A stretch of 47,484 bases of DNA. Origin: Acidobacteriota bacterium. GTDB lineage: Bacteria > Acidobacteriota > Terriglobia > 20CM-2-55-15. Of the stretch, positions 1-23,188 are shown piece after piece. Under the pieces are notes generated by a model that saw only the letters and a list, made by a program, of their open reading frames with translations, searched no databases and was not told where the DNA came from. The position numbers were made by a program, and so were the translations under genes. The stretch's first letter is position 1, and every line of letters starts with the position of its first letter. Location: the NCBI GenBank assembly GCA_023265365.1, contig JAHFTY010000006.1, forward strand, positions 1 through 47,484. The letters run 5' to 3'.

Positions 1-183
1 AGCTGTCTCAAACGCTCGTTGAAGATCCGCATCACGGAACCGGCCGAAGACTCCACGCAACTGAACGAAGAATCGCCGGCCATACTGCTGTGTGTCCGCA
101 GGCGGCGATATCTGTTGTTCGCGCTGCGCCTGAATGATCGTCGAACACCAGAACGCAGCCGCGAGACACAGTAAGCGGGACAT
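1..183 (-). CDS. Exported protein of unknown function, N-terminal part only
   Basis: The gene runs off the left edge, so only about 61 N-terminal residues are visible. The ATG at 183 is preceded by a GAGGAAA Shine-Dalgarno-like stretch. An in-frame ATG at 204 would add MSRTTRK. The start (MSRLLCLAAAFWCSTIIQA) looks like a cleavable signal peptide with cleavage near AQR, so the product is probably periplasmic, outer-membrane or secreted. The visible mature part (Gln-rich, then YGRRFFVQLRGVFGRF) matches no family I recognise. It is divergent from the NHL-repeat gene, and the intervening 278 bp hold a palindromic repeat. Confidence 0.6.
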   Translation of the reverse strand, partial: MSRLLCLAAAFWCSTIIQAQREQQISPPADTQQYGRRFFVQLRGVFGRFRDADLQRAFETA

Positions 184-217
184 TTTCCTCGTGGTCCTTG
201 ACATGTCGTTACCTTAA

Positions 218-366
218 CAGCCCGTGGCAGAAGATGGTAATTCTGGGTCAGACATCGGCGCCCATTTTCGGTGGGGTCACACCCTTGCTTTATCAGTTCT
301 TTGGGTCTTGACCCCGAATTGTGAAAATGGGCGCCGAGGTATCTGACCCACTTCTGCCACGGGCTG
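218..366. repeat. MITE-like palindromic element, copy 1
   Basis: This 149-bp non-coding element has perfect 16-bp terminal inverted repeats, CAGCCCGTGGCAGAAG (218-233) and its complement (351-366). Inside, GGGTCAGAC and GGCGCCCATTTTC on the left recur inverted on the right (GAAAATGGGCGCC, TCTGACCC), so nearly the whole element can fold into one long hairpin. A near-identical copy in opposite orientation lies at 45573-45720. It carries no ORF, so a mobile or REP-like repeat mobilised in trans is the likeliest reading (inference). CTTA occurs just outside both ends (213-216 and 367-370) and could be a target duplication. It fills most of the 278-bp gap between two divergent genes. Confidence 0.85.
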
Positions 367-461
367 CTTAGCAGTTTGACGCAAAAAAGCGGGCCCCGAA
401 GTAAATGTCTTCGTGTAAGAATTCTGGACGTTTGACGGAAAAACCATGAACGGAGTGTCAT

Positions 462-3400
462 TTGAACGTTTACCTTCGAGCGGGCATGATCCTTTCGATC
501 ATGCTGAGCGCAACCCAGAGCAGCCTCGGTCAATCCCCGATCGTCCCCAATGGAATCGGCCTGATTTCCACACACATCAATTCAGCGGGCTTCTTTTACA
601 ACGGCGGAGCCGCAATAACCTTTTCTATCGGGATTCCATCCACGGTCGCCGCTTCGACGGACGCCCGTGGAGGGTTCTATTTCGCGACACCGGAACATCA
701 CCGGGTTTACCGCGTCCTTGACAGCGGCGAAATCTTCGTCGTTGCGGGAAGCACAACGGGCTTCAGCGGAGACGGCGGTCCCGCCCGATCGGCACAACTG
801 TCTTTTCCGAATGCGCTCGCGGTGGATCTGGCGGGAAATATTTATTTGTCCGACAAAGGGAATTCGCGGATTCGAAAAATAGACACGAATGGCGCGATCA
901 GGACCCTCGCTACCGCCGTCAGCAGCCCGGCGGGGCTCGCGGTCGATCTCGCGAACAATCTTTATATCGCGGACAGCGTGGCCAACAAGATCCTGAAAAT
1001 CGCATCGGACGGCACTCTGTCCACTTTTGCGGGTACCGGTTTCACGGGATTCTCGGGCGATGGGGGGCCTGCCGTTGAAGCGTCGTTTTCCGGTCTTGAA
1101 GGATTGGCCACGGATGCGCAGGGAAATGTCTATATAGCCGATTCGATGAATCATCGGATTCGCGTGGTCAGGACTGACGGGATCATCACTACGGTTGCGG
1201 GCACGGGCATCGCCGGGTTTCGCGGCGATGGTGACCCCGCCATCGTGGCGGACCTGAATCAACCCAGAGGCGTCGCTGTGGATGGCTCCGGAAATGTTTT
1301 CATTGCCGACACTGCGAATCACGCCGTTCGCAAAGTGGCGGCAAATGGACTGATCAGCACACTGGCCGGAACCGGCGTCGGCGATTATTACGGCGACAGC
1401 GGACCAGCCGCGAAAGCGCTGCTCAGAAGTCCGGCCGCGGTTTCGGTGGATCGGCGGGGCGTTGCGTACATCGCCGATTCGATTAACGGTCGTATCCGCA
1501 GGATCACGCCCGCCGGCGCCATCTTCACGGCCGCCGGCGGCGGTTCGGTCACCGGCAGCGATTTCCGGCCGCAGAATATCGCGCAGGACGGTTTGGGCAA
1601 TCTGTACATGACGGGGGCCGGCAGCAACACCATTTTCAGAGTGGCGCCCAATGGGGCCGTCGCTGTATTTGCGGGCTCTGCCGCCTCAGGTTACAGCGGG
1701 GACAGCGGGCCTGCCCGGCAGGCGCTGTTTGCGTCACCGGCCGGACTGGCGTTCGACGGCAGCGGCAACCTCTACGTGGCGGACTCGGGAAACAACTGCA
1801 TCCGGCGGATCGGCGCCGGCGGGATGGTCACCACCATCGTCGGGAACGGTGCCGGTGGATTCAGCGGCGATGGCGCCGGAGCCGGCGCGGCGCGATCGGC
1901 GTCCCTGCTTTCGCCGCAGGCAGTCGTCGTCGACAGGAATGGAAACCTGTTCATCGCGGATACCGGAAACCATCGCGTCCGAAGCGTCACGCCCAACGGC
2001 GCGATCAACACTGTCGCCGGCAATGGTCTGACCACGATCCGCGGCGATGGAGCGGCCACGTCGATCTCGCTCAACGCCCCGGCTGGTCTGGCGATCGAAG
2101 CCAATGGCCTGCTGTTGATTTCGGATACTCAGAATCACCGCGTTCGGAGACTGATGGCGGACGGAACCATCCTGACGATTGCCGGTGAAGGCATCGCGGG
2201 GTTCACGGGAGACGGACAGGCGGCAGTCGTGCGAATATCGGCGCCAATGGGGCTGGCCGTCGACTCCGGCGGCAACATCTACATTGCGGACTCCGGCAAT
2301 AACAAGGTCCGCCGAGTCAGTCCGACCGGCTTGATCACGACGGTCGCCGGTACGGGAGCCGCCGGCTATTCGGGAGACTCCGGACAGGGCGTGTTCGCAG
2401 CATTGAATGCTCCCTCCGGAGTCATCTTCGATCCCGGAGGGATTCTATACATCGCCGATACCTTGAATAGCGCCATTCGCAGACTCCCGGCGACATACTC
2501 GTCATCGTTTTCGATTGCGAATGCCGGAGCCGTTTCTTCCGAAACCTCCGGAAACGGCGCCGCGCTTTCGACCGGTTATGCCACCATTCAACCCACAGGT
2601 GGAACGACATCCCCCGCCGGAATGGCGATTTTTGGTTTTCGCGAAAAGGGCGTTCTCGTCTCCGAAGCCAGCGTGCCCGCGGCTGCAGCGCTCCGGTCCG
2701 GAAGGATTTATGCCGAGGTCAACGGACCCGTAAACACCGGACTTGCCGTTGCGAATCCGAACGTGGAGGCCGCGGTCATCCGTTTCTACTTCACGGATGC
2801 GACGGGCGATTTCCGCAATGGAAGTTTCACCATCGCGGGAAATGAGCAGTTTACGGCGTTTCTCAATCAGGCGCCGTTCAATGGCGGATCAGCCGTGAAG
2901 GGAAGTTTTACGTTTGTTTCTTCGGTGCCCGTTGCGGTTACCGCTCTGCGCGGATTCACAAATGAAAGAGGGGAGTTCCTGATCACGACTCTTCCCGTCG
3001 CCGACCTGGACGCTTCGCCAGAATCCGGAACGATCTGGATTCCTCATTTCGCGTCGGGAGGCGGATGGAAAACGCAGGTGGCGCTTGTGAATCCCACCGA
3101 AACCACGCTGGCCGGCGTTGTGCAATTCACGCGGACGAACGGAAACGATGCCGGCCGCATCTCCTATTCGATTCCGCCACGTGCTTCCCAAACGGTGGAC
3201 GCCTCGGGGGCTTCGGCATCCGCAGTGACGGTCGGAACGGCGCGCATTATTCCTTCCGGCGCCTCTTCATCCCCTTCAGCGACGGCGGTATTCTCGTACC
3301 GCACGAACGGTGTCACGGTGAGCGAGGCCGGTGTTCCGTCCGTCGCTCCCTCGCGCGGCTTCCGGCTTTATGCCGAGGCCTCCGGTGATTTCGCCGGGCA

Positions 3401-3863
3401 CGGACCGGGTTCGATTCAAACCGGTCTTGCGATCGCCAACACCACGTCGAGTCCTGTGACAATCACGCTTTCCATCGGCCCTGAGGGCGCATTTGCGTAT
3501 GGTGTGGGATCGTTCACCCTTGCCGCAAGTGCGCAGGTCGCCGTTTTCCTGAATGAAATTGCCGGTTTCGAGGCGTTGCCGAAAGCCCTTCAAAGCGTTG
3601 TTCGTATGCAGGCATCGCAGGAGGTGTCGGTCATCGGCCTTCGGGCCCGCTATAACGAGCGCGGTGATTTGCTGATCACCACGACCGCGCCCGCCGACGA
3701 ACTTTCGCCGGCGTCCGCCGTTCCCATGTATTTTGCGCATTTTGCGGATGCGGGTGGCTACAAGACGCAGTTTGTTCTGTTCAGCGGAAAGACAAACCAG
3801 ACGCCGGCCGGTTTGATGAAACTGTTTTCGAAATACGGAGAGCCGCTGCCCCCATCCAGATAA
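462..3863 (+). CDS. Secreted NHL-repeat protein with tandem C-terminal units
   Basis: This is a large extracellular or surface protein of about 1,133 residues. The start is a TTG at 462 with GGAG six bases upstream; an ATG at 486 is the alternative. The N-terminus (MILSIMLSATQSSLGQ) is a signal peptide. Residues from about 60 to 670 hold some ten NHL-type beta-propeller repeats, each carrying variants of 'LAVDxxGNIYIADSGNxRIR' and 'TVAGTGxxGFSGDGG'. From about 680 to the end come two tandem units sharing paired segments: SEASVP/SEAGVP, TGLAVANP/TGLAIANT, NERGEFLITT/NERGDLLITT and GWKTQVALVN/GYKTQFVLFS. NHL propellers usually bind proteins or ligands or act as lyases; no catalytic residues can be assigned here. 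The gene ends 9 bp before a small palindrome and converges on the amidase gene. Confidence 0.9.
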   Translation: MNVYLRAGMILSIMLSATQSSLGQSPIVPNGIGLISTHINSAGFFYNGGAAITFSIGIPSTVAASTDARGGFYFATPEHHRVYRVLDSGEIFVVAGSTTGFSGDGGPARSAQLSFPNALAVDLAGNIYLSDKGNSRIRKIDTNGAIRTLATAVSSPAGLAVDLANNLYIADSVANKILKIASDGTLSTFAGTGFTGFSGDGGPAVEASFSGLEGLATDAQGNVYIADSMNHRIRVVRTDGIITTVAGTGIAGFRGDGDPAIVADLNQPRGVAVDGSGNVFIADTANHAVRKVAANGLISTLAGTGVGDYYGDSGPAAKALLRSPAAVSVDRRGVAYIADSINGRIRRITPAGAIFTAAGGGSVTGSDFRPQNIAQDGLGNLYMTGAGSNTIFRVAPNGAVAVFAGSAASGYSGDSGPARQALFASPAGLAFDGSGNLYVADSGNNCIRRIGAGGMVTTIVGNGAGGFSGDGAGAGAARSASLLSPQAVVVDRNGNLFIADTGNHRVRSVTPNGAINTVAGNGLTTIRGDGAATSISLNAPAGLAIEANGLLLISDTQNHRVRRLMADGTILTIAGEGIAGFTGDGQAAVVRISAPMGLAVDSGGNIYIADSGNNKVRRVSPTGLITTVAGTGAAGYSGDSGQGVFAALNAPSGVIFDPGGILYIADTLNSAIRRLPATYSSSFSIANAGAVSSETSGNGAALSTGYATIQPTGGTTSPAGMAIFGFREKGVLVSEASVPAAAALRSGRIYAEVNGPVNTGLAVANPNVEAAVIRFYFTDATGDFRNGSFTIAGNEQFTAFLNQAPFNGGSAVKGSFTFVSSVPVAVTALRGFTNERGEFLITTLPVADLDASPESGTIWIPHFASGGGWKTQVALVNPTETTLAGVVQFTRTNGNDAGRISYSIPPRASQTVDASGASASAVTVGTARIIPSGASSSPSATAVFSYRTNGVTVSEAGVPSVAPSRGFRLYAEASGDFAGHGPGSIQTGLAIANTTSSPVTITLSIGPEGAFAYGVGSFTLAASAQVAVFLNEIAGFEALPKALQSVVRMQASQEVSVIGLRARYNERGDLLITTTAPADELSPASAVPMYFAHFADAGGYKTQFVLFSGKTNQTPAGLMKLFSKYGEPLPPSR

Positions 3864-3871
3864 GACAAATT

Positions 3872-3895
3872 CGGTGTCAGGCACCACTGACACCG
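3872..3895. repeat. 24-bp palindrome (GGTGTCA/TGACACC) at the amidase stop
   Basis: CGGTGTCAG and CTGACACCG flank a GCACCA centre, forming a short perfect hairpin between two convergent genes. The amidase stop codon (TGA, 3879-3877 on the minus strand) and its last codons lie inside the palindrome. It could be a bidirectional terminator, although no T-run follows on either side. It could also be one of the short REP-like palindromes common in environmental bacteria. I cannot decide from one copy. Confidence 0.6.
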
Positions 3896-5697
3896 GATTT
3901 CAGGACGGGTTTTTTCGTATGGAGTTGCGCGACGTCCTGGAAGGACTTCGCCACGAAGAGGATTTCGGTCTCCTTGAATGGCGGGCCGTACAGAACCACA
4001 CTTTGCGGTGTGCCTGCCGGCGCTCCCTCCGCCGGTTCGCTGAACGAGGTCACGACGTTGACGCCCGGATAGCCTGCGGAATTGGTGTTGCCCGTTCCGC
4101 CGCCGGCCGCGCCTCCGCCACCGCGAGCGCCGCCCCGAGCAGCAGCGGGCGCGTCGGGTGCCCCAGCGCCGCGTCCGCCGCCTCCACGCTGGCCGCCGGC
4201 GCCTCCCGCTGCCGAGAAATAGACGTCGACGCCGGCTGTCGCCTTGGCCAGGTGCATCATCATCATCATTCGAATACGCTGGCTCTGCAGATAATCGACA
4301 ACGCTCATGATCCGCGCCGCTTTGAACCCGTCCCCACGGCCCGGATTCGTCATTTTCGCGACGCCGCCGCTGCGCACCAACTCGTCGAAAAAGGCGCCCT
4401 GTTCATAAGTGAATCCTTCGGCGACCTGAGGCAGGTTATCGGGCGGAATCGCCAGAGGGATGAGCGTCGCGCCCAGTCCCTTGAGAACATCCATCAGTTT
4501 TTGGGCGTTCGGATTTTTCTGTGGACTGTCGAGTCCGGTGACGCCGATCCGGATTTTCTTGAGATCCATTTTTGCGGGATTCCAGTTGAAGGGGATGTCG
4601 GAAACGCTCATGTCGCGTCCATCCGGCCTGGCAACCACGGACATCACCATCGCGCAGTCTTCGGCGTACCGGCACATCGGGCCGAGACGGTCATAGGTCC
4701 ATCCGAGCGTCATGGCGCCATGGCGGCTGATGCGTCCGAAGGTCGGACGCAGGCCCGTGACGCCATTGGTTCCTGAGGGGCTGAGGATCGAGCCCTGCGT
4801 CTCCGTGCCGATCGAAAAGCCGACGCAGCCGGCCGCTGTTGCCGAGCCTGGTCCGGCCGATGATCCGCTTGCGCTCCCGTAGTTCCATGGATTGCGCGTC
4901 ATGCCGCCAAACCAGTTTGCCCCCTGCGCCAGTTCGCCGGAGGTGAGTTTGGCGATCAGCACGGCCCCGCTTTCGCGAAGGATTTCGACGATGCTGGCGT
5001 CGTAATCGAAGACCTGATCCTTATAAGCGCCGGAGCCCCACGTGGTCTTGTATCCCTTCACTGCGATGATGTCCTTGCAGCCCCACGGAATTCCATGCAG
5101 GGGACTCTTCATCCGTCCGGCGGCCAGCGCGGCGTCCGCGGTCTTCGCCTGGCTCATGGCGAGTTCGTCCAGGAACGTAACGGTGTTCAGCAGTTGTCCG
5201 TTGTACCGGTGAAGCCTGTCCAGATACATCCTGGTCAACTCGACAGACGAAACCTGTTTGGTCCGCAGTAACTCCGAAAGGTGCCGGACCGGCCAGAACG
5301 CAACGTCTTCCAGGTTTCCGGGGACTTTCAAGCCAGACACTTTGCCCAGTTCGAAGGGCTGCGGAATCCGGTTCACGACGACGCCCGGAACAATCGCGTT
5401 GATGTGAAAAGGCGGGGAAACGTCATTCGGGATGTGGAATGCGCGCACAGACAACGCGCGGGTCAGGTTCTGGTTGGCGGTGTTGACCATCTGCTTTCGT
5501 TCGTCTTCGGTGAACTCCACTCCACCGATCTTCAGCGAGGTCGATAACATTTCCAGCGTGATCTGTTGGGCGCCGGCGTCCTGCATCTTGCCCCACAGGA
5601 TTCCCGGCACCAGCGTTCCGGCGAGCCCGATGCTCGAGAAGTAAGCCATGAACCGGCGTCTGCTTTCGTCAATACGGATCGTCTTTTTCTTTTTCAT
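3877..5697 (-). CDS. Exported amidase-signature family hydrolase
   Basis: Related to the GatA/amidase-signature family, which hydrolyses amide bonds with a Lys-cisSer-Ser triad. The start chosen is the ATG at 5697 (MKKKKTIRIDESRRRF); an upstream in-frame ATG at 5736 would add 13 residues. The N-terminus has consecutive arginines followed by a hydrophobic stretch (FMAYFSSIGLAGTLVPGIL), which suggests Tat-type export. Triad candidates are Lys208 in WGCKDI, Ser279/280 in SASGSSAG and Ser303 in TETQGS. At about 606 residues it is longer than usual (around 480-500). It has an N-terminal extension and, late in the protein, a Gly/Ala/Arg-rich low-complexity stretch (GGGGRGAGAPDAPAAARGG). Because it lies outside the cell and has no GatB/GatC neighbours, a peptide or amide hydrolase is likelier than tRNA amidotransferase. 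Substrate unknown. Confidence 0.88.
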   Translation of the reverse strand: MKKKKTIRIDESRRRFMAYFSSIGLAGTLVPGILWGKMQDAGAQQITLEMLSTSLKIGGVEFTEDERKQMVNTANQNLTRALSVRAFHIPNDVSPPFHINAIVPGVVVNRIPQPFELGKVSGLKVPGNLEDVAFWPVRHLSELLRTKQVSSVELTRMYLDRLHRYNGQLLNTVTFLDELAMSQAKTADAALAAGRMKSPLHGIPWGCKDIIAVKGYKTTWGSGAYKDQVFDYDASIVEILRESGAVLIAKLTSGELAQGANWFGGMTRNPWNYGSASGSSAGPGSATAAGCVGFSIGTETQGSILSPSGTNGVTGLRPTFGRISRHGAMTLGWTYDRLGPMCRYAEDCAMVMSVVARPDGRDMSVSDIPFNWNPAKMDLKKIRIGVTGLDSPQKNPNAQKLMDVLKGLGATLIPLAIPPDNLPQVAEGFTYEQGAFFDELVRSGGVAKMTNPGRGDGFKAARIMSVVDYLQSQRIRMMMMMHLAKATAGVDVYFSAAGGAGGQRGGGGRGAGAPDAPAAARGGARGGGGAAGGGTGNTNSAGYPGVNVVTSFSEPAEGAPAGTPQSVVLYGPPFKETEILFVAKSFQDVAQLHTKKPVLKSGVSGA

Positions 5698-5816
5698 CAG
5701 GTCACACCCACCTTCCGAACATTTTTGATGCGGCATTCTGGACCAGATCGATGGTTTCGAACAATCCTTATGTACTCGTACGAAACAGCGGTGAATGGGT
5801 TATCCTTGTTGTACCT

Positions 5817-6194
5817 ATGTTGAAACCAGGCGGGACCGTCGATAGTTGGTGCGGCACATGCAAACTCATTTTGGCTCACACCATCGAAGCCATGGTCGGT
5901 GACAAACCGGCCCGAGTTCACTGCAACACGTGCCAGGCACAACACTCATACAAACCGAACAAGCCAGGCACTTCCGCGCGATCGGGGAAGCCACGGCCGA
6001 CCAAATACCAGACGCTTTTGAACGGGAAGGATATGGCGCATGCGAAGCGCTATTCGACCAAAGACAAGTACGAGCCCGGCGACATTCTGGATCATCCCAG
6101 TTTCGGTGTCGGCGTGGCGACGGCTGTCAAAGACGGCACCAAGGTCGAGGTGACGTTCGAGGGCGGCGTGAAGCTGTTGATTCACGGCCGATAG
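5817..6194 (+). CDS. Small zinc-ribbon protein, uncharacterised family
   Basis: A 125-residue cytoplasmic protein. The N-terminal half has paired Cys motifs (WCGTCKLILAH and VHCNTCQAQHSY), typical of a zinc ribbon. A Lys/Pro-rich linker follows, then a compact C-terminal domain (GDILDHPSFGVGVATAV, then VEVTFEGGVKLLIHGR). From memory, proteins with this layout occur in myxobacteria and acidobacteria as uncharacterised proteins. I chose the ATG at 5817 because the product then begins MLKPGGTVDSWC as I recall for relatives; an in-frame ATG at 5751 is possible. No clear Shine-Dalgarno precedes either start. It is divergent from the amidase and convergent with recA. Confidence 0.75.
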   Translation: MLKPGGTVDSWCGTCKLILAHTIEAMVGDKPARVHCNTCQAQHSYKPNKPGTSARSGKPRPTKYQTLLNGKDMAHAKRYSTKDKYEPGDILDHPSFGVGVATAVKDGTKVEVTFEGGVKLLIHGR

Positions 6195-6289
6195 AGTTCC
6201 TGCATCCATCCGTTCTTTCGCAGAACCTCCGAAGTGTCTTTTGTCTGGTCGAATAATCCAGGTCTGACCTGCCTGGCCGGGTGTGTCGA

Positions 6290-10754: not shown

Positions 10755-11864
10755 TTATCGCAGGTTGAAATTCACTTCGATATTCAAGGCGACAGGCACC
10801 GGCACACCGTTCTGTTTCGCCGGGCTGAATTTCCACTGACGCAGCGCTTCGATCGCCTTTTCATCGAGGCCGAATCCGAGACTCCGCACCACTCGAACGA
10901 TCTGAACGGATCCGTCTTTCTGGACGATGGCTTCAAGGACGACCGTGCCCTGGTACCGGGCTTTGCGTGCTTCCTCGGAATACTGCGGATCGACCTTGTG
11001 AATGATCGAAGGAGCGCTCACGCCTCCACCAACTCTGAAGATACCGCCGCCGTATCCTCCGCCTTCGCCAGGCCCGACACCCGGTCCGCTTCCCGAACCA
11101 ACCCCGCGCCCGGTTCCGTTACCAATGCCGCCGCCGCTGCCCGATCCTGAGGACGGCGGTCCGGGAATCCCCTGGGGATCGCCGATGTTCAGCAGGTTCA
11201 AACTCGGCAACTGTGCCAACTGCGGTGCGACGACTGTCGGTTCAACGATCAGCGTGGGATCCGGATTCTTCGGCGGTTCCGGATCCGGCGGAACGAATTG
11301 TTTGTCTGCCGGACGAGGAAGTTTTCCAAGGGACGGCGGAGTGAGTTGGTGCTTTCCGCCGCCGCCGCCGCCGCCCGAGGACGTGTCCAGTTTCGGGAGG
11401 TTCAGAACGAGGGACTCCGGCTGGACCAGCATCACGTTGGTGGCTGTCGCAATTGGCGTTTTTGAAGACGTTGCCCAGGGAATCAGGGCCAGGATGACGA
11501 TGCCGGCATGAACTCCCACCGAGAGGAGACCGGAAAGTCCCGCGTTCTTGTCTTTCGACCAGATCTCGTCGACTTCCACCGGGGTGGCGGTCGTTTCAAT
11601 TTTGCGCGGATGCAGCGTGTCCTGAATGAGTTCTCGCAGACCGGACGCCAGTGAGGTGTATGCGGAAGGCTGCTCCACAAGCTTGCTGAGCGCCGACATG
11701 TCTTTCTCTGCAGTTATTTCAACCCGGGCTTGAGGGTTCCTCCGCTCATCCCGCATTTCACGCAGTTGGCTGACGAGCGAGGAAAACCACGATTCGCCGT
11801 CGGAAATCGAAGTTCCGGTTACGAATACACTTTCGCCTGGCTCGTTGTTTTGTTTAGGTTTCAT
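10755..11864 (-). CDS. TonB-family energy transducer with long N-terminal extension
   Basis: A 369-residue TonB protein that would pass energy from the inner-membrane ExbBD complex to outer-membrane receptors. The single membrane segment is at about residues 112-130 (LLSVGVHAGIVILALIPW) rather than at the extreme N-terminus, leaving about 110 cytoplasmic residues. A Pro/Gly-rich spacer spanning the periplasm follows (about 150-285). The C-terminal TonB domain (about 286-369) has DPQYSEEARKARYQGTVVLE, the DGSV turn and ALRQWKFSPAKQNGVPVPV. No exbB or exbD is in the window. It is divergent from lspA with 88 bp between. Confidence 0.92.
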   Translation of the reverse strand: MKPKQNNEPGESVFVTGTSISDGESWFSSLVSQLREMRDERRNPQARVEITAEKDMSALSKLVEQPSAYTSLASGLRELIQDTLHPRKIETTATPVEVDEIWSKDKNAGLSGLLSVGVHAGIVILALIPWATSSKTPIATATNVMLVQPESLVLNLPKLDTSSGGGGGGGKHQLTPPSLGKLPRPADKQFVPPDPEPPKNPDPTLIVEPTVVAPQLAQLPSLNLLNIGDPQGIPGPPSSGSGSGGGIGNGTGRGVGSGSGPGVGPGEGGGYGGGIFRVGGGVSAPSIIHKVDPQYSEEARKARYQGTVVLEAIVQKDGSVQIVRVVRSLGFGLDEKAIEALRQWKFSPAKQNGVPVPVALNIEVNFNLR

Positions 11865-18531: not shown

Positions 18532-20703
18532 CTAGAAACTCACCAGGTGCGTCAGCTTGAGAATGATCGCGCGGGCCGCGGGAGCCAGGTGCGCCGTGGA
18601 TCTGGTTTCATTGAAAACGACGAACAGGTCGCTCAATGGATGGTGAATGACGTTGAATCTGACGTTCGAGACCACCTCTCGATTCACGCTGTTGTACTGC
18701 ACATACGCGTTGAGGAACATGCGGGTCGAAAACGAGGTGTCCAGCCGAAGCTGAACGAGATTCGTCGCGAAACGAATTCCGGGAAGGTCCACCTTGTCGT
18801 GGCTGTAGTTCAAGCTGGACGCCAGTTTGGCGCTGTAACGGAAACGCCCGCCGGCCGAGAATCCGGATTTTGTTCCATTCCAGAAATTGCCGAAACGGAG
18901 TGCGCCACTGACGGACAGCCGGCGGGCGCGGCTCGAAGAGTAATCCATGTTCCCGTCGCCGAACCGGTATTGGCCCACGGGAATCGAGTAATCGGAACGG
19001 ATACGAAACGGCGTGGACAGAGCTTCCTGATTGAATCGGTAGGTCAGCTTGAAATTGGCGCCGTCCGCAAAGTCGATGTTGAAGGTCGGACTCGCGGTTG
19101 TTGTCTCAACGCCGAACCCCTTCCGTGTGAATCGCGCGTACGGCAGCTCCGCCCGGTACTCGCGAACCCATTTGTATGTGAGTGCCGGACGAATCCGCCG
19201 CGCCGCAGACGCATTTGCAATATGGACGCCGGGGCGCGGGATGAATCCGAGGTCGTCGCGAAAATTCCTGCCGAGCGCGGTGTAACTTGCCGAGAAGCGA
19301 TTCAAGGTCGAGTCGAACATGAAGCCCAGGCGCGAAGCATCGCCACCGCCGACTCCGGTCTTCGCGCTTCGCATCCACAGTCCGTCAATATCCAGAACGC
19401 GGCGTATGTTGAACCGGAGGTCGCCACCTCCTGCGCGGTTTGAGACAGAACCCCTTTCCTTGCCGAGGTAAAACACGCTCGCCGACGAGTTCGACAGAAA
19501 CTCGCGCGCAAATCGGATGACCGAAAGATTGGCGGCCGGCAGATCCGGGAGGCTTCTTCGTTTTTCGATTTCGGTTTGAATATTCATCACACCGATACTG
19601 TTGCGTCCCACTTTCCCGGTGAGGCGGGCGCCGCCGAAGATGGGGACGGGCGTGCCGGTATCGGACAGGCCGATGGTGCGGCTGAAGAAAGGCAGGAAAT
19701 CGGGAGGTCCCGAAGATTGTGCGCCGGCGTTGTTGTTATTCGGAAGCGGAGGGCCCATCTGGAACGTACCCTGGTTTTCGAGAAAGAACTCGCGTTTTTC
19801 CGGGAAGAAGAGGTTGAAGCGTGTCAGGTTCACCTGCTGCTCGTCGGCTTCGACCTGCGAAAAATCGGTGCGGTAGGTCCCATCGAGAACCATGTTGCTG
19901 CCGATTCCGACCTTGACGTCGACACCGCCGTCTCCATCGGATTTCGTTCCGGCTGCGCTTCGCGATGCGCTACCCGTGACAAACGGCTTAACGCGGAGAT
20001 TGCGTCCGGGTTTGACGCCCCGGATGCCTTCGAGAGTGCCGGCATATGAGACTTTGAATTGCGAGAACTGCCGCGGCACCGGTGACCACAACGTGATTTC
20101 GTTCTTCCGCCGAATGAGTCTGAAGATGTTGACTCCCCATGCCTGCTCTTCGGCATCGGAGAATCGCAGACTCTTGAACGGAATCGCGTATTCGACGATC
20201 CACCCGCTGTCGAAGATCGACGCCTTCAGATACCACACCGCATCCCAGTTCTGGTTGTTATTGCGGCCATCGTCGTAGCTTTGCGTGTCCCGCTGGGCGC
20301 CCATCGGGTTCGTCTGAAATCCGTAGGAGTTTCTCCTGTCGTGGAACGTATCCAGAACAAGCACAAACAGATCGCCGTCGCGGGCGTTGAAGTCGCGTTT
20401 CAACTCGTTGATGATCAGCCTTTGCGGCTCATCGTCGTAAAGCGTGGCCCCGACGTACAGGTTGTCGTCATCGTAGAGGAATCGCACCTCGCTCTTCTCG
20501 GTTGTGGGAGCACCTTCTTTGGGCTGCTGCTGGGTGAAACCGGCGGCGGGTTCGGCTGTTTTCCAGACGGATTCGTTGAGCTTTCCGTCGATGACGATCT
20601 GATGACCGGGTATGCGGACCGCCTGGACACGACGAGCAGGATCCTGTGCGTGCAGGTCCAACGCAAGGGCGAACCCGATCAGGACGGGAATCAGCCGGCG
20701 CAA
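18532..20703 (-). CDS. DUF5916 outer-membrane protein with CBM9-like N-domain
   Basis: A 723-residue exported protein. After a signal peptide (MRRLIPVLIGFALALDLHA) comes a carbohydrate-binding family 9-like domain at about 25-220, with IDGKLNESVWKTAEPAAGF, VRFLYDDDNLYVGATLYDDE and WIVEYAIPFKSLRF. The rest is the DUF5916 barrel-like region, including FFPEKREFFLENQGTFQMG and FFSRTIGL, ending in a terminal Phe typical of outer-membrane barrels. The function of DUF5916 is not established; the N-domain suggests glycan binding. It starts 1 bp after the stop of the TonB-like barrel gene, so the two form an operon and may work as one outer-membrane uptake unit. It converges on the M1 peptidase with 11 bp between. 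Confidence 0.88.
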   Translation of the reverse strand: MRRLIPVLIGFALALDLHAQDPARRVQAVRIPGHQIVIDGKLNESVWKTAEPAAGFTQQQPKEGAPTTEKSEVRFLYDDDNLYVGATLYDDEPQRLIINELKRDFNARDGDLFVLVLDTFHDRRNSYGFQTNPMGAQRDTQSYDDGRNNNQNWDAVWYLKASIFDSGWIVEYAIPFKSLRFSDAEEQAWGVNIFRLIRRKNEITLWSPVPRQFSQFKVSYAGTLEGIRGVKPGRNLRVKPFVTGSASRSAAGTKSDGDGGVDVKVGIGSNMVLDGTYRTDFSQVEADEQQVNLTRFNLFFPEKREFFLENQGTFQMGPPLPNNNNAGAQSSGPPDFLPFFSRTIGLSDTGTPVPIFGGARLTGKVGRNSIGVMNIQTEIEKRRSLPDLPAANLSVIRFAREFLSNSSASVFYLGKERGSVSNRAGGGDLRFNIRRVLDIDGLWMRSAKTGVGGGDASRLGFMFDSTLNRFSASYTALGRNFRDDLGFIPRPGVHIANASAARRIRPALTYKWVREYRAELPYARFTRKGFGVETTTASPTFNIDFADGANFKLTYRFNQEALSTPFRIRSDYSIPVGQYRFGDGNMDYSSSRARRLSVSGALRFGNFWNGTKSGFSAGGRFRYSAKLASSLNYSHDKVDLPGIRFATNLVQLRLDTSFSTRMFLNAYVQYNSVNREVVSNVRFNVIHHPLSDLFVVFNETRSTAHLAPAARAIILKLTHLVSF

Positions 20704-20704
20704 G

Positions 20705-23188
20705 CTAGAAGTTGAAACGCAGTCCCGCCTCGATTTCGCGCGGGTTGCGGGCGTTGAACGAACGGCCGAAGTACGGCGACGTCATCACACCCGATGGAGT
20801 TCCGTAGTTCGTTCGATTGAAGGCGTTGTTCATGTTCGCGAACAGATTCAGATTCGTGCCGCTGCCCTTGAGCCCTTTTCTTTCGCCGAAGAAAATCGCT
20901 TTCGAGATATTGAAGTTGAAGCTCACGAAATTCGGACTGTTCGCACTGTTGCGCGCGCCACCGGCGGGCCTGTCGTTGGTCTGGCCATCCTGGTTGTCGT
21001 CGGCGCCGGTCGTAATGTTGTAGGGCTGTCCGCCGTTACGCACCATGCTGCCGGTGAGGAACACTCCAAGTGGAAGCTGCGCATTGATCGTCGTATTGAG
21101 GTTGTAGGGTTGCCGCCAGCCGGCGCGTCCCCAATCGGCGCGGAGATCGTAATTGTCGGCCGGGAGATTCCACCAGCCTTCGGAGTCCGTATAGGTGCTG
21201 CCCGTACTGTAAGACGCGTTCAGGTTGAAAATGCTGAAGCGCTGTCGGGCGGAAAGCCGCAACGTCTGAGAGTTCGACAACGCGGTGGATTCCAGATTCA
21301 AGACGTTCCCGCGGGTGGGATCGGGATTCTGGGTTTGCCCGCGGAACGGTGCATTCAGATTACGAGTGCGGAGTTGACGCACGCCGCGGTTCCGGTCATA
21401 GCTGACGCTGAGGAAGAGGTTGTTCTTGAACGTCTTCTCGACCGAAATCTGCGCCACGATGTTGTACGGCGTTGTGAGGTCCCGGTCGGTCACACGAATC
21501 GAAGAAGGCGGGACCACGGTCACATCGCCCGATTGAAAAGGGTCCGGCCACGAGGGGTTGTTGACCACGATTTCGTACTGGCGCGATCCGTCGAACCGGC
21601 GTTGCTGCTGAATGATATCGTTCTGGATCCGCTGATAAAACACACCGGATCCCCCGCGAATCACAAGGGACCTGCCCATCGCATAGGCAAAGCCAAAACG
21701 CGGCGCAATGTTATTGCGATCCGCGATGTTGGTCTGCCAGTCGTAGCGGCCGCCGGCCATGAGGGTGAGCCGCTGGTTGACCTTGAAGTCGTTCTGCATG
21801 AATGCGGACATTTCGAGTTGATTCAGATCCAGGACCGGGTTTCCCCGGGTGATCCGATAGGTAATGGGACGGCCGGCCACGTAGTCCTGAAGATTCGAGA
21901 AGGTGAAGGTTCCCGCGTAATTCTGAATCGAGTAATTGTGGTTCGTCCGGTACGAGCCGTCGATTCCCGCTTTGAGCGTCCACGCCGAACCCATACGCGT
22001 CAGGAGGTTTGAGAAATTGTATTCCCGGGCCTGGTTGTCCGTCTTGTCCTGCGCGCCGCCGGCGCGGAAGGCGTCCAGGACGTTGACCGCCACTTTCTCC
22101 GAAAGGGGCTTCGTGCGGAAATGCCTCCGCTGGATTTCGAATGAGGTTTCATACAGCGTCTGCTCGGAGATTACGGAGAACTGGCGGACCCCGAAATTCG
22201 AGTTGCTTCCCAGAGAACTGGAGGCGCGCTCGGGAAGCGTAAAACCTCCGACGAACTGATTCTTCTGACTGTTTGTGCCGTAGCGTGTGTTGAAAATGAG
22301 GGAATGCTTTTCCGTGAGCTGAAGCGTGCCGCTAATGCCAGCAGACCGGTTGGTGTTGGGATGCACGATCCCCAACTCGAACACACCATCGGGTTGGATG
22401 GCATGCACGGTATCCACGTTCTGGGACTCGTTGTTGTGACCGGAGAAATTGATCGTTAAACGATTGCGAATCAATGGTCCGCTGAAGTTCCCGCTGACCT
22501 GGCGCTCCTGGTAAGGCGGCTTGTTGCTCGCAAAGGGATTACGCGCATTCAGTGTTTCGTCCTGCAGGTTCACGGATCCCTGTCCGTGAAATGCGCCGCT
22601 GCCGCCGCGCTCGATGACTTCCGGGCCGCGGTTTCCGCCACCGCCGCCACCCATCATCATTCCCATTCCGCCCCGAAAGAATCCTTCTTCGGCGGTGAAA
22701 TTGTTGTTGTTGATACGGATGAACTGGGTCTGCTGCTTTTGCCGATCCTGAGACTTGGCGAGCGCGCTTTTTGCGATTGTCTTCTCCGACTCATGGCGTT
22801 CCCAGAGGGCAAGCTGTTCGACAGTCAGGTATTCTCGAAGCCGCTTGCTGAACTCGGTCTGCATCCACTGAATCGCCGCGACTGCGCGGTCCATCTGCTG
22901 TCCCTGGACAGGCCCGCCGCGGAAATCCATCGTTTCGCCGAAAAGCTGCTCGGAGGCCTGACGTCTGTCCTCGGTCATCAGCGCGATGCTTTTTTCCTGT
23001 TCGTCCGTGAACGGCCGGCCGGCCTCCCTGAGAAGAGCCTTAACTTCTTCGCGAAGATCGTCCAGCGGATTGGATGAGGTTGAACTCGAACCCTGCTGGG
23101 CGGACAGAAGAACGGGTGCCAGAAAAACGATGGCAATGAAGACGGTTGCAAGAATCCGGAATCTCACGAAGATGTTCACTCTCCTCAC
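20705..23188 (-). CDS. TonB-type barrel protein with Spy/CpxP-like helical N-domain
   Basis: An 827-residue outer-membrane protein. The N-terminus (RILATVFIAIVFLAPVLLSA) is a signal peptide. Residues about 40-150 are charged and helical with an LTVEQ motif at 121-125, like the LTxxQ motif of Spy/CpxP chaperones. Then comes only the second half of a TonB-receptor plug (FIRINNNNFTAEEGFFRGG; GSGAFHGQGSVNL; ETLNARNPFA; GNFSGPLIRNRLTINFSG), followed by a barrel ending in EAGLRFNF. The usual carboxypeptidase-like domain, the TonB box and the first half of the plug are absent. The start is uncertain: GTG at 23188 is kept, and GTGs at 23179 and 23167 are also in frame. Operon with the DUF5916 gene. 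Confidence 0.82.
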   Translation of the reverse strand: MRRVNIFVRFRILATVFIAIVFLAPVLLSAQQGSSSTSSNPLDDLREEVKALLREAGRPFTDEQEKSIALMTEDRRQASEQLFGETMDFRGGPVQGQQMDRAVAAIQWMQTEFSKRLREYLTVEQLALWERHESEKTIAKSALAKSQDRQKQQTQFIRINNNNFTAEEGFFRGGMGMMMGGGGGGNRGPEVIERGGSGAFHGQGSVNLQDETLNARNPFASNKPPYQERQVSGNFSGPLIRNRLTINFSGHNNESQNVDTVHAIQPDGVFELGIVHPNTNRSAGISGTLQLTEKHSLIFNTRYGTNSQKNQFVGGFTLPERASSSLGSNSNFGVRQFSVISEQTLYETSFEIQRRHFRTKPLSEKVAVNVLDAFRAGGAQDKTDNQAREYNFSNLLTRMGSAWTLKAGIDGSYRTNHNYSIQNYAGTFTFSNLQDYVAGRPITYRITRGNPVLDLNQLEMSAFMQNDFKVNQRLTLMAGGRYDWQTNIADRNNIAPRFGFAYAMGRSLVIRGGSGVFYQRIQNDIIQQQRRFDGSRQYEIVVNNPSWPDPFQSGDVTVVPPSSIRVTDRDLTTPYNIVAQISVEKTFKNNLFLSVSYDRNRGVRQLRTRNLNAPFRGQTQNPDPTRGNVLNLESTALSNSQTLRLSARQRFSIFNLNASYSTGSTYTDSEGWWNLPADNYDLRADWGRAGWRQPYNLNTTINAQLPLGVFLTGSMVRNGGQPYNITTGADDNQDGQTNDRPAGGARNSANSPNFVSFNFNISKAIFFGERKGLKGSGTNLNLFANMNNAFNRTNYGTPSGVMTSPYFGRSFNARNPREIEAGLRFNF

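Follow-up and report, generated by a model that had tools for sequence, protein, structure and literature searches.

The window analysed here, a 47,484-nt contig (C249) of a 4.72-Mb acidobacterial genome in 362 contigs (G000), carries an intact open reading frame at 20705–23188 that encodes an outer-membrane β-barrel preceded by a helical domain and a remnant of a plug. The features of this gene and of its immediate neighbour are as follows.

20705..23188, minus strand: whole gene, Spy-like domain, plug remnant and TonB-dependent-type barrel (827 aa, GTG start, full-length homologues)
23096..23188, minus strand: signal peptide, residues 1–31 (..LLSAQQ), from the sequence and a model helix at 8–27; present in homologues
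22760..23071, minus strand: four-helix Spy/CpxP-like domain, residues 40–143, from predicted helices, the domain model, a structural second look and profile comparison
22997..23014, minus strand: first LTxxQ-like element, PFTDEQ, residues 59–64 (P59, F60 and Q64 invariant), aligned in register with LTxxQ in LTXXQ-family proteins
22814..22828, minus strand: second LTxxQ motif, LTVEQ, residues 121–125 (L121 and Q125 invariant)
22589..22729, minus strand: plug remnant, residues 154–200, with strands FIRIN and PEVI flanking a Gly/Met-rich insertion, from the plug profile and the model
20708..22588, minus strand: outer-membrane β-barrel, residues 201–827, from PF25183 (1.1e-52) and the second look
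18532..20703, minus strand: neighbouring CBM9 and DUF5916 protein, 1 nt downstream of the fusion gene and on the same strand

Pfam recognises the barrel alone in the window protein (OMP_b-brl_4, PF25183, 1.1e-52), with no match to CarboxypepD_reg, Plug or STN, and NCBIfam returned no match for the protein. The chain ends in an aromatic residue (..GLRFNF), and in the structural second look the barrel resembles the TonB-dependent transporters OprC, FrpB and PirA at Z ~16. The AlphaFold2 model, built with 21 homologues, places helices at residues 41–55, 62–86, 97–120 and 123–143, followed by two short plug strands (154–158 and 190–193) and a barrel of ~22 strands; at full length the model is of moderate quality (mean pLDDT 67, pTM 0.67). 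An assembly or frameshift artefact is ruled out because full-length copies occur in many genomes under purifying selection. Elsewhere in the window, positions 462–3863 encode a 1133-aa NHL-repeat (β-propeller) protein. CBM9/DUF5916-related genes like the downstream neighbour also adjoin fusions in two other genomes (G002 and G005) and an unfused pair in a third (G007); of the loci tested, three fusion genes and an unfused pair had such a neighbour, so it is not a general component of the system.

To define what remains of the plug we used a 145-position profile, built from the N termini of complete relatives and running from the TonB box to the first barrel strand. The window protein matches it from position 80 on (80–144, residues 150–227), and a sister group of fusions, here termed type 2, matches from position 39. 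TonB-box-like motifs lie ahead of the plug in 10 of 12 ordinary relatives, in none of seven type-2 proteins and in two of 23 proteins of the window's type, these last being a single motif inside a helix in two near-identical copies; no TonB box occurs at any conserved place across the 23 copies. CarboxypepD_reg is present in the unfused paralogue of the window gene. Judged by the start of the profile match and the motif counts, the window protein has therefore lost its carboxypeptidase-like domain and its TonB box, and some two-thirds of the plug is gone with them. A preliminary description of this DNA had already listed the first two among the missing parts and had credited the protein with half a plug. 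The plug is indeed incomplete, in the profile and in the predicted structure, where two strands and not a complete plug are seen; the loss is nearer two-thirds than half. Between the remaining strands, the Gly/Met-rich insertion (residues 169–187) is very variable in length and reaches dozens of residues in some copies.

The barrel belongs to the same family as those of Oar-like transporters, PF25183 being also the best match of the ordinary relative, and the ordinary relatives share the layout of Myxococcus xanthus Oar, that is CarboxypepD_reg, plug and barrel (PMC6434023). Unlike Oar, the fusion has neither CarboxypepD_reg nor TonB box, keeps about a third of the plug and carries a Spy-like domain instead. 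In Oar itself the TonB box matters in PopC secretion.

The helical domain shares with Spy/CpxP/LTXXQ proteins (PF07813) and Metal_resist proteins (PF13801; CnrX, NccX and ZraP) four helices with LTxxQ-like elements at both ends. The preliminary description had pointed to such a likeness from LTVEQ at residues 121–125; that motif proved real and conserved, and PFTDEQ at residues 59–64, which it had not mentioned, forms the second element. Conservation at both ends of the domain rules out a chance motif. Profile–profile comparison was made with LTXXQ sequences aligned from the same class and with Metal_resist. When the partner repeats described below were included, the domain reached 94% (E 1.3e-7) for LTXXQ and 89% for Metal_resist; without them the fused domain gave 51% (E 1.5e-4) and 13%, and reversed controls gave 0.2%. 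Pfam LTXXQ matched weakly in 5 of 21 members (best 0.0033, below the gathering cut-off), and one standalone partner passed the Metal_resist gathering cut-off (35.8 versus 29.2). Modelled alone, the domain has a pLDDT of 83.6. Plain Foldseek with this model gave no significant match, and searching the domain's sequence against solved structures gave none at all. In the structural second look, proteins of the Spy group lay near the top and made up the majority of the top rows (STV, Z 8.6; CnrX, 7.7; CpxP, 7.3; Spy, 6.6; ZraP, 6.4; also NccX), mostly at an r.m.s.d. of 2.6–4.1, and unrelated helical proteins at similar Z lay mostly at ~5 and above. Since Z scores of 6–8.6 are modest and common for helices, the three lines of likeness count jointly rather than singly; motifs, profiles and second look, taken together, support a resemblance of the domain to the LTXXQ/Spy superfamily. 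Unlike the members of that superfamily, the domain is covalently joined to an outer-membrane barrel, has no conserved His or Cys and scores below the Pfam gathering thresholds. The lack of any invariant His or Cys among the aligned copies rules out metal sensing of the CnrX kind.

The domain is under purifying selection. In 21 aligned copies, 22 of the 118 profile positions are invariant, and dN/dS is 0.05–0.18 in close pairs where it could be estimated. Mean identity over 210 pairs is 65% for the helical domain versus 55.5% for the barrel, the domain being the more conserved in 206 of them, and among the seven paralogues of one genome (G001) the figures are 72% and 60%. Such a pattern is expected of a docking module that serves diverse barrels, and an N-terminal domain kept constant while the barrels vary would fit one that meets a common partner.

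A search for the same fusion in other acidobacteria, suggested in the preliminary description, found the layout shared by homologues in eight genomes and in a second class. Neither outcome that the description had named as fatal to its reading came about, namely a complete plug in the predicted structure, or a helical region unlike LTxxQ proteins in a layout that no homologue has. There are 24 copies in the eight genomes, all from one acidobacterial family and with up to seven paralogues per genome: two in the window's genome, seven in G001, four in G002, five in G004, three in G005, and others in G003, G007 and G009, the copy in G007 being interrupted by an assembly gap. In G002, three type-2 genes also stand in tandem. 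The search was then widened to a larger sample of the phylum and afterwards to the class that gave new matches. It found the domain in a second family, in 4 of its 43 member genomes; three of these domain-bearing genes (L148, L149 and L151) read as the window's layout. Two of the three nest with good support among the genes of the first family in the barrel tree, which suggests that the fusions of the second class were likely acquired by horizontal transfer.

Searching with the domain alone uncovered small secreted proteins in G055, G049, G037 and G007 whose genes adjoin CarboxypepD_reg–plug–barrel transporters. Alignment shows two Spy-like repeats in this standalone partner, a secreted protein whose gene directly follows that of a complete transporter. 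It adjoins a transporter of the fusion's clade at 12 of 14 standalone loci, with gaps of −41 to 302 nt at the eight loci measured. The two exceptions are both in G010, and the partner is therefore not tied solely to the channel; one stretch of that genome (L153, G010:C105, 2951–6409) is a sigma/anti-sigma/Spy-like/partner/lysA block without the transporter. The window's own genome holds two unfused pairs of transporter and partner.

L060, G000:C270:7520-14914, 1015-6243: unfused locus with sigma factor, anti-sigma and Spy-like genes, transporter and partner
L061, G000:C322, 1461-5073: unfused locus with transporter and two-repeat Spy-like partner

At the C270 locus the order is sigma factor, likely anti-sigma gene, small membrane-anchored Spy-like protein, transporter (L060, 2455–5367), partner (L060, 5443–6243) and lysA; Pfam confirms the ECF sigma factor, and the size and position of the short gene make it a likely anti-sigma gene. 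At the C322 locus the transporter and partner genes overlap by 41 nt. Compared with the partner, the fused domain of the window's type corresponds to repeat 1 (HMM 3e-12 in a 15-sequence set; 4e-9 per genome) and the N termini of type 2 to repeat 2, in some cases with the end of repeat 1 as well (15-sequence set); profile–profile comparison of fused domain with partner gives 97.6% (2.9e-12). These sequence comparisons identify repeat 1 of the standalone protein as a homologue of the fused domain. That relatives encode the partner separately, next to the transporter, supports a functional connection between Spy-like domain and transporter, whatever its role. It also suggests that Oar-like transporters have a periplasmic helper, of which our literature search found no description.

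In a barrel tree of 53 sequences, the window's type (T3, 100/99) and type 2 (T2, 100/100) are each monophyletic and are sisters at 95/98, all support values coming from single searches; the sister grouping falls to 83/94 after the second-class sequences were added and four long-branch type-1 sequences dropped. Type 2 has the same domain, in the form of repeat 2, ahead of a plug that is almost complete. A gene at a contig edge in G463 (L150, G463:C150, ~1–905, minus strand) encodes the two repeats followed by SSNEISQIRM, a stretch that resembles the remaining plug strand; as the gene is truncated, this is suggestive. Type 2 and this two-repeat gene look like intermediates, and the simplest reading is a single fusion, after which the window's type lost repeat 2 together with the front of the plug. 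The ancestral state, of a kind still seen in relatives and in the window's own genome, would have been a four-part transporter (CarboxypepD_reg, TonB box, plug and barrel) with the gene of a secreted two-repeat Spy-fold partner behind it. In one lineage the partner would have been joined at the N terminus, where it took the place of the TonB box and of the carboxypeptidase-like domain and gave type 2; in the window's type, nothing but repeat 1 and the final two strands of the plug would then have been left. Because the partner gene comes after the transporter gene in the operon but its product is N-terminal in the fusion, a step of tandem duplication is likely.

We propose, at about even confidence, that an Oar-like transporter absorbed its operon partner and that the Spy-fold domain gates or docks the channel without TonB pull. 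The barrel would sit in the outer membrane with the Spy-fold domain at its periplasmic mouth, where the domain may fill or cap the gap in place of the lost plug and may dock on a shared periplasmic partner; the channel would then be gated without TonB pulling on a TonB box. The preliminary description had suggested that the protein may not be powered by TonB in the usual way, or that the domain may chaperone or regulate the channel, and these readings are plausible. Oar without its plug reaches the outer membrane at a reduced level and shows no secretion (PMC6434023); losing the plug is thus not enough to yield a useful channel, and the new domain is therefore expected to matter.

Spy and ZraP are periplasmic chaperones. 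The resemblance of the domain to their superfamily would also suit an intramolecular chaperone that keeps the barrel soluble en route and has little role after insertion, the separate partner doing the same for ordinary transporters, whose genes it adjoins and in places overlaps. Such a role leaves the loss of the TonB box and plug front unexplained, however, and most transporters in the class manage without a partner, any match to which is found in 31 of its 299 genomes. We regard this explanation as rather unlikely.

An extra periplasmic domain before the barrel, together with an ECF sigma factor at the locus of unfused relatives, recalls receptors of the FecA/FpvA type, and the domain might replace the FecA-type STN and report occupancy of the barrel to a CnrYXH-like anti-sigma complex. 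At the unfused locus in G000 and G003, genes for an ECF sigma factor and a membrane-anchored Spy-like protein accompany a short, likely anti-sigma gene, related sigma/anti-sigma/Spy-like loci occur in G008 and G010, and CnrX is among the nearest folds in the second look. Yet FecA-type receptors keep the TonB box and a complete plug, the fold of the fused domain is unrelated to STN, and its want of conserved His or Cys sets it apart from the metal sites of CnrX. Moreover, no sigma or anti-sigma gene lies in the window or beside the fusion genes among the neighbourhoods listed. A signalling receptor seems improbable.

We regard it as quite improbable that TonB still drives the protein by way of a contact that escaped recognition, in the linker or in the plug remnant with its conserved QTQ.[VI]RI. 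The QTQ at 153–155, R158 and I159 are nearly invariant, and TonB genes are plentiful (14 matches in the window's genome, one of them within the window at 10755–11864, TonB_C 7.6e-22), so that a degenerate contact could still serve the fusion protein, but the RI belongs to an ordinary plug strand and no TonB-box-like motif occupies a conserved place.

To return to a Spy-fold domain that gates or docks the channel, our literature search found no published description of a fusion between a Spy-like domain and such a barrel. A survey that sorted TonB-dependent transporters by their N-terminal domains required a Plug match and would therefore have missed the fusion proteins (PMC6434023). It is conceivable, and we hold it tentatively, that these proteins form a class of TonB-independent outer-membrane channels, descended from TonB-dependent transporters, in which a Spy-fold domain captured from the operon partner serves as the gate in place of plug front and TonB box, and that this class has multiplied into many paralogues and moved between classes. 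TonB-dependent transporters are understood by one scheme, in which the plug moves when TonB pulls on the TonB box. A conserved and multiplying branch that does without the TonB box and the front of the plug is a natural test of the need for plug and TonB.
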